Shown: positions 39,727 through 45,433, numbered from the stretch's first letter. The stretch is 51,294 nt of DNA from Candidatus Gastranaerophilales bacterium (GCA_944323165.1 CALURK010000014.1:1-51294), one strand, 5' to 3'. The notes: generated by a model from the letters alone, not told the origin. Made by a program: numbers and translations.

Positions 39727-40059
39727 TTATTGGAAATTATAGCTGAAAGATCTCTGAATAGAAGCGTCAACCGCACCTTGAGCTGATTGCATTTCAGCGT
39801 CAACCATCTTAAGTCTGTTTTGATATTCTTGCATTTGTAAATCAAGCTTTTTCTCTAAAATAATGAGCTTATCTCTTCGAGCCTCTAATTGCTTAACCGC
39901 AGGATTTTCCGGATCCAAGTCGTTACCGAGAGCCATAATCTCATCCGAAGAAGCAACAAGTTCCATCTTCGCAGATGCAATCCATTGAATCTTAGTTTCC
40001 AGCGAAATTTTATACGCTGTAAGATACATCATTCTGAAACTGGAGGCAATTAATCCCAT
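39727..40059 (-). CDS. Short two-helix protein sharing both termini with the 41582 protein
   Basis: 110 residues, predicted almost entirely helical. The N-terminus (MGLIASSFRMMYLTAYK) matches the pattern MG-x2-AS-x3-R-x3-L-x-A-x-K seen in the 572-residue protein at 41582-43300, and the C-terminus (VDASIQRSFSYNF) matches its VKDNIEDSFKTF. It thus looks like the same family with the centre removed. No signal peptide. AAGGA precedes the ATG. It is the last gene of the - strand cluster, convergent with the cyclo-ligase gene. Confidence 0.72.
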   Translation of the reverse strand: MGLIASSFRMMYLTAYKISLETKIQWIASAKMELVASSDEIMALGNDLDPENPAVKQLEARRDKLIILEKKLDLQMQEYQNRLKMVDAEMQSAQGAVDASIQRSFSYNFQ

Positions 40060-40071
40060 AATACATTCCTT

Positions 40072-40341
40072 CTATCTTGTTTCGTTTAAATTCTTGCCTT
40101 TCAGGAATGTGTGTTCATTACTTTCCGCTATCAAACTTTCCATTTTATGAAGCTGATGCTTGTGGTAGTTTACCCTATACTTTGCCATCTTTAGCTTTTG
40201 CCTGATGGTTAGCATATCCTTAAGACTTGAAAGTAAACTTACGGTCAGCGCCTTAAATGGATTTTTCCGTTTAAAAAACGATCTGGTAAAATTCAAAAAG
40301 TTCACTAACCGTTTTATGTTTTCTTGTAGTTCTTCACGCAT
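40072..40341 (-). CDS. Small basic helical protein
   Basis: 89 residues from MREELQENIKRL, very rich in Lys, Leu and Arg, with no signal peptide. The ATG at 40341 fits an AGGAG site 9 nt upstream better than the one at 40347. It lies 12 nt upstream of the short two-helix protein gene, so the two are probably co-expressed. It could be a cytoplasmic chaperone for the neighbour, as small helical proteins often are in secretion clusters, but that is conjecture. Confidence 0.6.
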   Translation of the reverse strand: MREELQENIKRLVNFLNFTRSFFKRKNPFKALTVSLLSSLKDMLTIRQKLKMAKYRVNYHKHQLHKMESLIAESNEHTFLKGKNLNETR

Positions 40342-40700
40342 AAGCATTTACTCCTACACGTTCTAAGCCTACATGTATTATAAAACATGTGAACTTAAAT
40401 AATTGCCTGTTTAGAATATTGTTTGTTACATTTTTTAACATGTTATTTAGAACTAGTCCTATTGCCGGTGATACTGTTGAAGACAAACCTTTTTTTATAA
40501 TAATTTTCTTTTATAGTATTGTTTAACGGCATTTTTTTCAAAAACTTTAACTCTTTTCTGTTATAATACCTAATTTCGTTACAAAAATTTACACAGGAAG
40601 CAATGCTCTTAAAAAGAGCATTATTCAAAATAATATCCAGCATTATTCTAAAAAAAGTTCTTCCTCGCATTTTCTCTCTTCTATTTTATTATTTTAAATA
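40342..40700. other. Mostly non-coding stretch inside the helical-protein cluster
   Basis: It contains a - strand TATAAT box at about 40377-40382, a perfect 9-bp hairpin at 40602-40622 (AATGCTCTT / AAGAGCATT) and a + strand TATAAT at about 40562-40567. A 75-codon - strand frame (40443-40670) exists but has ordinary low-complexity composition and no homology signal, so I do not call it. Confidence 0.5.
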
Positions 40701-41558
40701 TTATAAGTCTTGAATATCTTTGCTAGCAGATTCAATATCGTCTTTCAACATTTTTCTAACAATGTCACCTTGTGTATCAAGCATTTTGCAAACAGTTTCA
40801 ATATTTGCAACTTTTTGAGAAAGTATAGTATCAGCATTAGAAATAACGTTGCTTGAAACCGTCTGATAAGCTGACAATGCAGCAGAGGTAGTACCTTGCA
40901 TTAAATTACCCATAACAACAGCCGGCAGACCGAATTCACCAAGATAAGGAGCTGCAGCAGTCATAATTCCGCCCCAACCTGATACGATACCGGCAAGTGG
41001 CATAAGAATATTTGCCGCACCAATTCCGTAACCGTTTGCAGTACCGATACCATAGGCAGCTGTACTTGCAATATCTGCTATACTACCAATACCTGAAGCA
41101 TATCCTGTTGTTGCTCCATCAGAAGAGCCAAATCCAGAAAGTAAATCTCCTATTCCTGAAGCTCCTCCTGTTGTGTAGCCGCTTTGTCTGTATCCAAAAT
41201 TAGCAGCATATCCGCTTGGAAATCCTGAATAATTTCCTAATGAATTAACACCAAAAGAGGAATAAGTTCCTGTCGTTCCGCCTGTTCCACCTGTATATTG
41301 TGTCCAGTAAGAAGTTCCTGGAATATTCATTGCTGTTGTGCCGCCAAGAGTTGTCATAAAAGCAGATGGAGCAAACAAGCTGGCAAGTTGGTATAAAAAT
41401 CCTCCTGCAGCTTCAAAACCTGTTCCAGAACTTCCTGAACCTGCTACCGTTAAATCACGCAACCTGTCGTATGTTTCGTACAGCATTACCTTTGCATCGG
41501 CTGATGCGGAGCTGTATTTGTTTGCTATTACTAAGTATCCATCGTTTTTGTATGACAT
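40701..41558 (-). CDS. Gly/Ser/Tyr-rich protein with helical ends
   Basis: 285 residues. Residues 1-40 (MSYKNDGYLVIANKYS, then a helix) and the last 60 (SNADTILSQKVANIETVCKM, then KDDIESASKDIQDL) are helical and charged. The centre is Gly-, Ser-, Thr- and Tyr-rich with hydrophobic Ala/Gly stretches. No signal peptide or family match. GAGG precedes the ATG. It lies 23 nt downstream of the 572-residue protein, so they are probably one operon. The design recalls secreted structural proteins or translocators, which is inference. Confidence 0.68.
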   Translation of the reverse strand: MSYKNDGYLVIANKYSSASADAKVMLYETYDRLRDLTVAGSGSSGTGFEAAGGFLYQLASLFAPSAFMTTLGGTTAMNIPGTSYWTQYTGGTGGTTGTYSSFGVNSLGNYSGFPSGYAANFGYRQSGYTTGGASGIGDLLSGFGSSDGATTGYASGIGSIADIASTAAYGIGTANGYGIGAANILMPLAGIVSGWGGIMTAAAPYLGEFGLPAVVMGNLMQGTTSAALSAYQTVSSNVISNADTILSQKVANIETVCKMLDTQGDIVRKMLKDDIESASKDIQDL

Positions 41559-41581
41559 ATAAACCTCTTTTATGCGGAATA

Positions 41582-43300
41582 TTATCCACCGAATGTTTTG
41601 AATGAGTCTTCAATGTTGTCTTTAACAACTTTAGAAACTGCATCAATTTCTGTAGATAGCGCATTCTGCTCTGTATCCAATTGTTTTAGACGAAGCTCAA
41701 GTTGTTGATCTTCTTGTTGTATTAAAGATGTTTTAGCATTAATATCCTGAACCATCTTGTCATATAACGCATTTTCATAATTGTATTGATTCATTGCATC
41801 TTTATAAGCTTCTTCATCTGTGATCGTTTCCGCATTTAATGCATAAGTGACAGAATCATTCTCAAATCTTACAGTCGTAAAACGACCGTTTCCGTCAGTT
41901 TCTAATAATGCGTTTTGAGTAATTTCTTTTTTTGTTGAGATATATGAAGCATTGTAGTAAGATAATTTGTCCTGGCTATCTATCTTGTTAATTCCTGTAC
42001 CACTTTGATATGATCTGTTTAAATCCTCAAATGTAGTGTAGTATGTTACTCCATTCATTTTAAATTGGTAAATACCGCCTAAATACTCATCATTTTCGTT
42101 AAAACAATCAATAATAGATGAGTCAATATTTTGTGCCCTCATGTCAGCTACAACTTGTTTTAACTCAGCTTTTTGATCGTTTGTTAAGTCAGTAAGTAAT
42201 GTAAGTTCACAGTTTCCAACATAAGTCGGTTTACAAAGTCCGTCATAAGTTTGTTCTGCTGTCTGATATGCCTGCAATGCTTGGAATTCTACAGCCTGAA
42301 GAGCTGATATCTGCGCATCATACTGACCAGCTATTTGATCTATAGAATTGTCACCGGTTGTTTGGTATACAGGCAATACAGTCTGAGTGCCTCCGGAGCT
42401 TCCACCATATAAGTTCCTTAAATCTGATCGTAATGCGATTGCTCCGCTTGTAGAATCATAGTAAATATTTGCATAATCTGTTTGTACATCATCTGATAAT
42501 GCACCTTCGCTTACCAGCTTATCGACAGCGGCTTTAACAATGGCTTTGTCCCCTTCGCTAAGCTTGTTGTATCCTGTAAACTCTGTCGGACCTTGAGTTG
42601 TAGTTGAAGGGGATAAGTCGCTTACTGCTCCTGTGTATTCTTGATCATCATTTAGGTTATAATATTTACCGTCTTTTAAGTAATATTGAGTCCCTGCTGT
42701 ATCTGTATATATTGGATCTCCATCATCGGTTACATCAACAACTGTTTGACTTACACTGTAAACATCCGATTCTGTATCATATTCGCAAGAGGAAATCCCC
42801 GTAAAGGAATCTGTATCTGCATAATTTGATAATACAGCAGCTTCATCTTGTTTTGCTTTCGTAGCAGCTTTAGCGGCTTCATATTCTTGTTTTGTTTTTG
42901 TTACTAGTCTTAATGCGGTTTCTATTTGATCAACACTTGCATTAACACCGCTTGAAAACTGTACTTTAGGATCATTTTTCTTTTTTTCTGAACCTGTATA
43001 TACATCTTCATAGTAGTGGTATGTTGCAACATAGTTATAATCTTCTTCCGGCGTTGCAAGCTGCTGCCAATTATCAAGAGTATATTCATTTATCCCATCT
43101 GTGAATGAATACTGTTGTTTCGTATAATCTTGAGTGCTAGGAGGTATTGGCACTTGCAAGCCTAACATCTGGTTAAACAAATTTGCAGATTGATTTGACA
43201 ATACTGTTCTTGCCTGATTTATCTGCTGACCTTCATATTCACAGTTTGATTTTCTTGCAACAAGGGCTAAATACCTTGCCTGCGATGCTGCCATACCCAT
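41582..43300 (-). CDS. Large protein with MGMAASQAR N-terminus and variable centre
   Basis: 572 residues. The N-terminal helix (MGMAASQARYLALVARKSN, then EYEGQQINQ) and C-terminal coiled coil (about 515-572, ending VVKDNIEDSFKTFGG) frame a centre of about 450 residues rich in Asp, Thr, Tyr and Gln with beta-type segments. There is no Sec signal. Conserved ends around a variable middle is the architecture of flagellin, hook and type III needle-type proteins, but the sequence motifs are different. AGGAG lies upstream of the ATG. Probable first gene of the cluster; function unknown. Confidence 0.75.
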   Translation of the reverse strand: MGMAASQARYLALVARKSNCEYEGQQINQARTVLSNQSANLFNQMLGLQVPIPPSTQDYTKQQYSFTDGINEYTLDNWQQLATPEEDYNYVATYHYYEDVYTGSEKKKNDPKVQFSSGVNASVDQIETALRLVTKTKQEYEAAKAATKAKQDEAAVLSNYADTDSFTGISSCEYDTESDVYSVSQTVVDVTDDGDPIYTDTAGTQYYLKDGKYYNLNDDQEYTGAVSDLSPSTTTQGPTEFTGYNKLSEGDKAIVKAAVDKLVSEGALSDDVQTDYANIYYDSTSGAIALRSDLRNLYGGSSGGTQTVLPVYQTTGDNSIDQIAGQYDAQISALQAVEFQALQAYQTAEQTYDGLCKPTYVGNCELTLLTDLTNDQKAELKQVVADMRAQNIDSSIIDCFNENDEYLGGIYQFKMNGVTYYTTFEDLNRSYQSGTGINKIDSQDKLSYYNASYISTKKEITQNALLETDGNGRFTTVRFENDSVTYALNAETITDEEAYKDAMNQYNYENALYDKMVQDINAKTSLIQQEDQQLELRLKQLDTEQNALSTEIDAVSKVVKDNIEDSFKTFGG

Positions 43301-43481: not shown

Positions 43482-44639
43482 ATGAAGCGCATACTTTTAT
43501 TTTTAACCTTTTTTATTTTTATACAAACTTCTGGTTTTGCAATAGAAGAAGTTATTTTGAATGTAGATGATAATAATGCGCCAACTCAAAATGTAAATAA
43601 GGTTTTTGAGGAAGATGATAAGTACACTTTATATGAAAAAATACAAGATATAAAAGCAAAAGAAGTTAAGAATACTGATAGTTCCGCTTACCTGCTGGAT
43701 GGTATACTAACCAAAAATTTTGAATCAGGAATTTTTGAAACTATGCACGTTTTTGGCTATTATAGAGCGGCTGCTGATATTGATGTTTCAGAAGGGGGAG
43801 ATACCATATATGATTTTAGTGCAATTCAAGCAGGTATCAACGGTAAATTCAGAGGCGGAGAGAATTATTATGAAGCACGGTTTCGATTTGACAGACAGGA
43901 CGGCTATTCATTTATACAAGCCCTGCCAATTGATATCTATGTTGCAAATGCTTCAATTCCCCATCATATAGTTATTGTCGGTAATACCAGAACTTCAACA
44001 GGTTATGAAGGTTCCAGATCTGATACTATTATTCCTTTTGTAGCAAGGTCACAAATCTCCAGAAATTTTGGTAATACAAGAAAATTAGGGGTGCGAGTAA
44101 AGGGTAATTACGACTTAGTAGAGTACGATATTGGCGGGTATAGTTCCGATACCTATTTCCGGAGTTTCTTTCCGGGGACAGAATTTGCGGGATGGCTTAC
44201 TTTGAAGCCTCTAGGTAAAACAAACGGTAAGTATGGCAAGTTAAATATCGGAGGCGGCATAACGACCGGGCGTAATGATATTGATTACACTGTATCAGGT
44301 GTGTATGTCGGATATGAGTATAAAAATTTTATGGCTAATTTTGAGTATGCTTATGCAGATGGCTATAATGGTGCAAGGACAATTTCTTCTAATAAGGCTG
44401 AGGGGTTTTATTCAACTTTAGGATATAAAATTACACCAAAGTTGCAGCTTTTGGCAAGGTATGACCAGTACACCCCTGATAGAAACTTTCAAGAAGACAT
44501 AAGAAGAGAGTACTCTGCTGGTATAAATTATTTCATTAAAGGGCAAGCTTTAAAACTAATGTTAAATTATGTATTTTGTCAAAATGATTTGTTTGAAGAT
44601 TCTCATCGAATAATTTTGGGAACACAGTTGATACTTTAA
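43482..44639 (+). CDS. Outer-membrane beta-barrel, porin-like
   Basis: 385 residues: Sec signal (MKRILLFLTFFIFIQ to GFA), a short helical segment (YTLYEKIQDIKAKEV), then from about residue 85 alternating amphipathic strands with aromatic girdles (for example YYEARFRFDRQDGY, YVGYEYKNFMANFEYAYADG, GFYSTLGYKITPKLQLLARYD), typical of a 14-18-strand porin. The last strand reads HRIILGTQLIL. Substrate is unknown; phosphate-selective porins are the nearest structural analogy. It overlaps the CHAP gene tail to tail by 4 nt. Confidence 0.82.
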   Translation: MKRILLFLTFFIFIQTSGFAIEEVILNVDDNNAPTQNVNKVFEEDDKYTLYEKIQDIKAKEVKNTDSSAYLLDGILTKNFESGIFETMHVFGYYRAAADIDVSEGGDTIYDFSAIQAGINGKFRGGENYYEARFRFDRQDGYSFIQALPIDIYVANASIPHHIVIVGNTRTSTGYEGSRSDTIIPFVARSQISRNFGNTRKLGVRVKGNYDLVEYDIGGYSSDTYFRSFFPGTEFAGWLTLKPLGKTNGKYGKLNIGGGITTGRNDIDYTVSGVYVGYEYKNFMANFEYAYADGYNGARTISSNKAEGFYSTLGYKITPKLQLLARYDQYTPDRNFQEDIRREYSAGINYFIKGQALKLMLNYVFCQNDLFEDSHRIILGTQLIL

Positions 44640-45433
44640 GCAGTGTATTTATCAAGAGAGATAAATCCGCTTAAAGTAGAGCTGTTAGCAGTGTATCGTT
44701 GAGTAGCAACCTTATTATTGCAGTTTCCTTCTACCGTTTCAAAAGAACCATCGGAATTAACTTTTGTAACGATACCTGTATGGGATTTACCACCATTTTT
44801 TTCTATCATAATATCGCCAACTTTGACATTTTGGGCAATGAAATTGGCTTTTCCGCTTGAAGGAATTTTTTTGTAACAATTGTTGGCTTCTCCCCATTCT
44901 CTGAGTGAATTTACAGAAGAGAAGTTCTTGAAAGAACTTGGAAGAGAACTTCCGTAAGTCTTTTTTGCGACATATGATACAAAGTCTGCACACCATGGAC
45001 GCGTGTTACCTCCAGAGAAGAGTCTGTTTCCTTCTTTGTCGGAATTTACTTTGCCGACGTAGCTTTTTGCTGTATTCGCTAATTCAAGCTTTAAAGAAGA
45101 GTTTTGACTGGTTGTAGACTTGGAAAAAGTATCACCGGAGAACGATGTGGTGTTAAAATTAAAGCTAAAATTGTTAAAAAGACTGTTATTAAGGTTACAA
45201 TTGGTATTAAAATTAAAGCCGGAATTAAAATTAGTGTTCCAGATATTTGTAGAAAATATATTTGAAAAATCAAAATTATTGAAATTAAATAAGGACATAA
45301 AATTACAGCCAGGAAGCATAGTAGAATTCCAGCCGAAACTGGCAGGGAAGTAAGAGTTTAAGTCGTTAAGCCAACTGCTGCTTCCGCTGAAATAACTGGT
45401 ATTTAATTTTGCAAAATTATCCAAAATAGCCAT
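44636..45433 (-). CDS. CHAP-domain amidase with Asn/Phe-rich head
   Basis: 265 residues. The first 110 are low complexity, dominated by Asn, Phe and Ser. The CHAP domain follows at about 120-260: catalytic Cys148 in RPWCADFVS, His218 in SHTGIVTKV, and the polar third residue in VEGN (235-237). CHAP enzymes cut peptidoglycan peptides. There is no Sec signal, so export must use another route or lysis. AAGGA precedes the ATG. The head resembles that of the 36182 protein in composition. Confidence 0.85.
   Translation of the reverse strand: MAILDNFAKLNTSYFSGSSSWLNDLNSYFPASFGWNSTMLPGCNFMSLFNFNNFDFSNIFSTNIWNTNFNSGFNFNTNCNLNNSLFNNFSFNFNTTSFSGDTFSKSTTSQNSSLKLELANTAKSYVGKVNSDKEGNRLFSGGNTRPWCADFVSYVAKKTYGSSLPSSFKNFSSVNSLREWGEANNCYKKIPSSGKANFIAQNVKVGDIMIEKNGGKSHTGIVTKVNSDGSFETVEGNCNNKVATQRYTANSSTLSGFISLDKYTA

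Follow-up and report, generated by a model that had tools for sequence, protein, structure and literature searches.

A Conserved Operon of Gastranaerophilales Associated with a Second Type III Export Gate and Encoding Candidate Axial Proteins

Introduction

Incomplete flagella have already been described in the Candidatus Gastranaerophilales. Di Rienzi et al. (2013; PMC3787301) identified flagellar genes in each of four genomes, with two flhA genes in ACD20, and interpreted the loss of filament and ring genes from MEL.A1 as genome reduction. Soo et al. (2014; PMC4040986) recorded complete flagellar sets in only three of nine Gastranaerophilales genomes; the others had just a subset, which was attributed to loss. 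A second point of comparison is provided by the non-flagellar type III secretion systems, including a Myxococcales form without needle and secretin, treated by Abby and Rocha (2012; PMC3459982), who used FliE, FlgB, and FlgC as flagellum-specific markers. In Vampirovibrio chlorellavorus, spikes entering the algal prey have been attributed to a type IV secretion system (PMC4451040). The present analysis concerns a five-gene operon on the minus strand, at 39727–43300, of a 51,294-nucleotide stretch from a Candidatus Gastranaerophilales bacterium (GCA_944323165.1, CALURK010000014.1:1-51294; hereafter “the window”), which is part of a 1.93-Mb assembly.

The products of this operon probably form the outer portion of a second, non-flagellar type III machine, from which two of them, P1 and P2, would be exported as an axial structure. 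The export gate of that machine, FlhA2, is distinct from the flagellar FlhA of the same genome. The organisms are those of the earlier flagellar surveys, and ACD20 was listed there with two flhA genes. Loss was the reading in those papers, whereas here the second set is found beside a full flagellar export set. The second machine resembles non-flagellar type III secretion systems, including the Myxococcales form, in having a separate export core, in vertical inheritance, and in having once been read as a relic. It differs from them in that FlhA2 falls outside the SctV clade, and from the Myxococcales form in keeping FliE, FlgB, and FlgC, which that form lacks. Because these three proteins are flagellum-specific markers, the rule of Abby and Rocha would class the second machine among partial flagella. 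A literature search, with subscription journals largely outside it, found no paper describing the second machine as a separate system.

Organization and Conservation of the Operon

The five consecutive genes occur in the order P1–P3–P5–P4–P2, all on the minus strand, with plus-strand genes flanking them on either side. P1 (572 amino acids; 41582–43300) is a candidate axial or surface subunit with long N- and C-terminal helices and a variable, beta-rich centre. P2 (110 amino acids; 39727–40059), a candidate repeating axial subunit, is a P1 paralogue of short hairpin type that has “DPENPAV” at its turn. Between them lie P3 (285 amino acids; 40701–41558), a Gly/Tyr-rich protein that has helical ends and contains a hydrophobic stretch; P5 (75 amino acids; 40443–40670), a small basic protein with homologues in 60 loci; and P4 (91 amino acids; 40072–40347), a small basic helical protein for which a role as chaperone or assembly factor is a guess. 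Four of these open reading frames had been predicted from the window, at positions that are confirmed here, and the fifth, P5, had been overlooked between P3 and P4.

The expectation of a conserved gene cluster was borne out, as the operon is kept in almost all relatives, which are Candidatus Gastranaerophilales or gut assemblies, and is conserved throughout the Gastranaerophilaceae. P3 is the best-conserved large member. Identity to the window proteins is mostly >80% for P3, P4, and P2 and ranges from 38 to 87% for P1, relatives of which were found at 79 loci. The proteins have no Sec-like N-termini, in agreement with the original prediction. Pfam and NCBIfam scans of P1–P4 returned coiled-coil and low-complexity noise and nothing else.

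Homology of P1 and P2

By profile comparison, P1 and P2 are homologous at their ends. The shared N-terminal motif that first drew attention to the pair is present in both, although with two rather than three residues before the arginine (MG-x2-AS-x2-R-x3-L-x-A-x-K), and the C-terminal motif I-x2-SF-x2-F is correct for P1, whereas P2 has I-x2-SF-x3-F. A hidden Markov model of the P1 N-terminus scores 17.8 bits against the window P2, compared with a maximum of 11.7 among 20,000 shuffles, and comparison of the P1 and P2 family profiles gives an E-value of 6.7e-5 over residues 1–41. The N-terminal similarity therefore withstands a statistical check. The C-terminal half alone does not in this genome, because its score of 8.8 bits falls within the shuffle range (maximum 12.2).

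The homology is settled by intermediates that bridge the two families. In the outgroup genomes G013, G042, and G037, a 109-amino acid protein is encoded beside P3 and a P4-like gene; its ends are P1-like, and its length and turn are P2-like. These proteins score 66–76 bits (N-terminal) and 54–60 bits (C-terminal) against the P1 end profiles, and align without gaps to the window P2 at 28% identity. When the joined P1 ends are compared with P2 plus the intermediates, the match extends over all 110 columns (99.2% probability, E 2.8e-19), a result that represents homology by transitivity, since the short group includes the 109-amino acid proteins.

P1 is, on the same sequence evidence, a helical hairpin carrying ~450 variable residues at its turn; the original prediction had noted extra residues of about this number between shared ends, and both the profile tests and the intermediates agree with that plan. 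Among 31 relatives, mean identity to the window P1 is 88% over the conserved N-terminal end (residues 1–50; 43151–43300, minus strand), 37% over the variable centre (residues 51–495; 41816–43150, minus strand), which forms an insertion at the turn of P2 and the 109-amino acid intermediates, and 76% over the conserved C-terminal helix (residues 496–572; 41585–41815, minus strand). Lengths in these relatives range from 394 to 733 amino acids, and P1-like forms of 109, 180, 324, 434, and up to 733 amino acids occur across other genomes. Most simply, P1 and P2 would derive from the duplication of an ancestral hairpin, with P2 staying short and P1 gaining a growing domain at the turn.

Conserved ends of this kind could alternatively be a module for export or chaperone docking with the centre as cargo, in which case P1 and P2 would be effectors or adhesins that the FlhA2 machine exports. 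This is the main rival to an axial role, and it draws on the size and sequence variation of the P1 centre and on the presence of four P1-type genes in the source genome, three of which lie away from the operon. Nevertheless, both ends are conserved, P2 and the 109-amino acid form consist of the ends alone, and the operon with P3 is nearly universal and as a rule present once. The cargo reading is accordingly judged unlikely.

Comparison with Axial and Needle Proteins

The AlphaFold2 model of P1 has a predicted local distance difference test score (pLDDT) of 89, with helices at residues 2–46 and 496–570 and a beta-rich middle; that of P3 (pLDDT 36) was unusable. In a Foldseek search of the PDB with the P1 model, 13 of the 14 top matches were flagellar axial proteins, and VIA-align gave Z scores of 9.8 with a hook–filament junction chain, 9.0 with a flagellin, and 8.0 with HAP3. 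P1 resembles the flagellar axial proteins (flagellin, HAP3/FlgL, hook, and rod) in its predicted paired terminal helices, a variable middle, and the absence of a Sec signal, and its model finds its best, though weak, fold matches among them. In contrast, P1 and P2 show no detectable sequence similarity to the flagellins, FlgL, or rod proteins of their own genome, and their operon occurs in genomes without flagellar FlhA. For example, hhalign values for the P1/P2 terminal regions were 4.3% with flagellin, 0.3% with rod, and 0.1% with FlgL, against 97.9% for flagellin with FlgL as a comparison case.

P2 resembles the injectisome needle protein SctF in being a short helical protein, and differs from it in its length of 110 amino acids and in having no Pfam or PDB needle match. 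The Pfam needle family (T3SS_needle_F) did not match any of 31 P2 members at E-values up to 10, and PDB profile searches with P2 returned coiled coils only and no solved needle. A DP-x-NP-type turn and a conserved I and F near the C-terminus are features that we take P2 to have in common with SctF, as a lead only. The identification of P2 as a needle subunit from its DPENP turn was rejected, as the profiles give it no support.

P1 therefore appears, from its model and profiles, to be built like an axial protein, yet by the tests applied it lies outside the known axial families. The original prediction of an axial or needle-type plan holds for the terminal helices and beta-rich middle, and does not extend to a needle or flagellin profile match. 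Because no profile matches, P1 and P2 are linked to axial and needle proteins through their architecture, a weak similarity of fold, and gene association.

A Second Type III Export Set

The flagellar export genes of the source genome (fliP-fliQ-fliR-flhB-flhA) form a set on contig C22, and the genome also has flagellins and rod/hook genes. In all, it encodes two full FlhA proteins, the second of which adjoins a FliH; two FliF, the second adjoining a FliE; two FliP; two type III ATPases; and, on C9, a rod set (FlgB/FlgC/FlgG-like). The original prediction was unaware that a second type III set accompanies the flagellum in this genome. Genes of the second set are dispersed in this genome, with FliE2-FliF2, FliG-like-FliH2-FlhA2, FliI2, FliP2, and the rod at other loci; its FliO, FliQ2, FliR2, and FliM/N-type protein were read in relatives.

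Comparisons were made over 193 genomes, each at least 90% complete and mostly from metagenomic assemblies. Genomes referred to as FlhA2-only, or without flagellum, are those without flagellar-type FlhA. FlhA1, FliF1, and FliI1 exceed the curated flagellar NCBIfam cut-offs, whereas FlhA2, FliF2, and FliI2 fall below both the flagellar and the injectisome cut-offs. With the flagellar models, scores are 702 bits for FlhA2 (cut-off 772), 116 for FliF2 (129.75), and 568 for FliI2 (629.8). With the injectisome hrcV model, FlhA2 reaches 584 bits (cut-off 692), short of what would mark it as an SctV-type gate. FliP2 narrowly exceeds the flagellar FliP cut-off, FliE2 passes easily (58.7 bits, cut-off 30), and FlgB- and FlgC-like proteins exceed the Pfam cut-offs in the source genome and are present in FlhA2-only genomes too. 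The FliE/FlgB/FlgC rod by which a bacterial flagellum is recognized is therefore found in the second set.

In a tree of FlhA proteins (43 sequences, four SctV references, LG+G4, some long branches flagged), FlhA2 forms a single clade with 100/100 support, separate from flagellar FlhA and from SctV, and splits into families f5/f6/f7 and f1/f2/f4/f9/f10. FlhA2 also occurs in genomes that do not have flagellar FlhA. At another locus, these retain FliP, FliQ, FliR, FliO, and a protein with a FliM/N domain; they also have a single type III ATPase and two or three rod-domain proteins. In family f1, the rod/hook-domain matches lie in frames of only 147–259 amino acids.

Such genes could be the remains of a decaying flagellum, with the operon as a lineage-specific flagellar accessory. 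The rod genes, FliE, and C-ring protein of FlhA2-only genomes are all flagellar in kind, the score of FliP2 is consistent with this view, and the earlier genome papers (PMC3787301, PMC4040986) read the genes so. The explanation was already disfavoured and is very improbable: the source genome has FlhA2, FliF2, FliP2, and FliI2 alongside a separate flagellar set, and FlhA2 is an old separate clade whose reading frame is open in every listed genome without flagellar FlhA.

Two further observations concern the FlhA proteins. A third FHIPEP protein (L092:9882-11363, on C18; 493 amino acids) comprises the cytoplasmic half of FlhA with a different N-terminus and without the membrane half. Copies scoring ~147–166 bits occur in 11/11 P1-bearing genomes tested, for which reason it may be a soluble docking platform. 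Separately, two 81-amino acid proteins with the same start and end (MAIGARDFIDKLLV...) are encoded at L090:15520-15765 and L091:11903-12148, and a different flhA lies within 6 kb of each.

Association of the Operon with FlhA2

P3 is found in 146 of the 193 genomes. In family f1, which is read as Gastranaerophilaceae from its named relatives, it occurs in 133/136 genomes: 36/36 with flagellar FlhA, 97/98 that are FlhA2-only, and 0/2 without a full FlhA. The operon is thus independent of the flagellar gate. Outside f1, P3 is confined to families f2, f4, f9, and f10, and the genomes examined from these have both FlhA types and P3.

A linked export machine was something to look for according to the original prediction, and in relatives the FlhA2 set is indeed linked to the operon. 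P3 and FlhA2 are on one contig, 6.9–13.9 kb apart, in 33 genomes, and in 32 of these they share a strand with P3 upstream; as the genomes are related, these are not 33 independent events. For two of the 33 (G015 and G083), the intervening genes were read in order, and there the operon P1-P3-P4-P2 is followed by several other genes and then by fliE2-fliF2-fliG-like-fliH2-flhA2. At another locus (L027), the operon is 2–5 kb from flgC-flgB-flgG-like rod genes. The gene association of the operon with the FlhA2 machine is strong. Two matches near P1 in rumen loci were set aside, one being FliI-like and apparently an F1 ATP synthase beta subunit (L044), and the other a genuine FliR that is 7 kb away (L042).

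That the operon encodes a cytoplasmic or envelope coiled-coil system unrelated to type III export, co-occurring with FlhA2 through general family conservation, is highly improbable: export of P1 and P2 is drawn from gene association rather than direct observation, the compared genomes are related, and the operon is unlinked to machine genes in its own genome, but the shared strand and order in 32 of 33 linked genomes, the rod-gene linkage at L027, and the joint distribution over f1, f2, f4, f9, and f10 all speak against it.

Proposed Model

The preferred explanation is that the class Vampirovibrionia possesses a second type III machine that would have evolved alongside the flagellum. P1 and P2 would leave the cell via the FlhA2 gate, with FliI2 serving and no Sec signal, and would pack through their paired terminal helices to form a tube or needle beyond a short rod. 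P2 would be the plain hairpin subunit, and P1 the same hairpin with its variable centre facing outward in the manner of flagellin. Accessory functions would fall to P3, P5, and P4, with cap, translocator-like, or chaperone roles being guesses; a further guess is that P3, which is conserved and has a hydrophobic stretch, could sit at the tip or in the target membrane.

Several points weigh against this explanation. In the source genome, the operon adjoins no machine gene. Families f5, f6, and f7 have a gate of the FlhA2 clade but no P3, and two genomes (G085 and G167) without P3 and FlhA2 keep FliP2 and FliI2. The co-loss in these two is weakened as evidence for the association because of this retention, and because a single assembly gap could account for the absence of both linked genes. 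Neither a second FlhB nor an outer-membrane component was identified, but no search of FlhA2-only genomes was aimed at FlhB, secretin, FlgH/FlgI, or ring genes. The best Foldseek E-value for the P1 model is just 3.3e-3, and VIA-align Z scores of 8–10 are middling for long helices, as unrelated helical chains reach 7.7. Profile searches gave no sequence match of P1 or P2 to needle, flagellin, FlgL, or rod families. Finally, we infer the export, polymerization, surface exposure, and function of P1 and P2.

A broader claim is made more tentatively, and may well prove too strong. The machine could be a type III nanomachine of a third kind, distinct from both the flagellum and the injectisome, that is inherited vertically across this non-photosynthetic cyanobacterial class, assembles a needle or a filament from a new family of hairpin proteins whose larger member displays a variable domain, and is kept by gut members that lost the flagellar export gate. 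If so, a gut bacterial group that is both large and common would carry an unrecognized type III apparatus that has an exposed subunit of its own, and what was dismissed as flagellar decay would constitute a working machine. A lineage that keeps the flagellar rod outside the flagellar and SctV clades would also inform the origin of injectisomes from flagella. Moreover, the apparatus would be a testable candidate for the contact of non-motile Gastranaerophilales with hosts or neighbours.

Additional P1 Copies and Neighbouring Genes

The three P1 paralogues outside the operon have conserved ends and are scattered, on C6 (L094:9255-10817), C2 (L095:9621-11204), and C20 (L093:10183-11367), the C20 copy being the most divergent. 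A glucosaminidase-domain protein without a Sec-like N-terminus (L094:6145-6981) is encoded ~2.3 kb from the C6 paralogue. A dedicated role for the muramidase beside this paralogue as its wall enzyme was rejected, as a BLAST survey found no linked homologue at other loci. In the window itself, a CHAP-domain protein (44636–45433, minus strand) likewise has no Sec-like N-terminus and is found near the operon in many relatives; it is possibly a wall enzyme exported independently of Sec.
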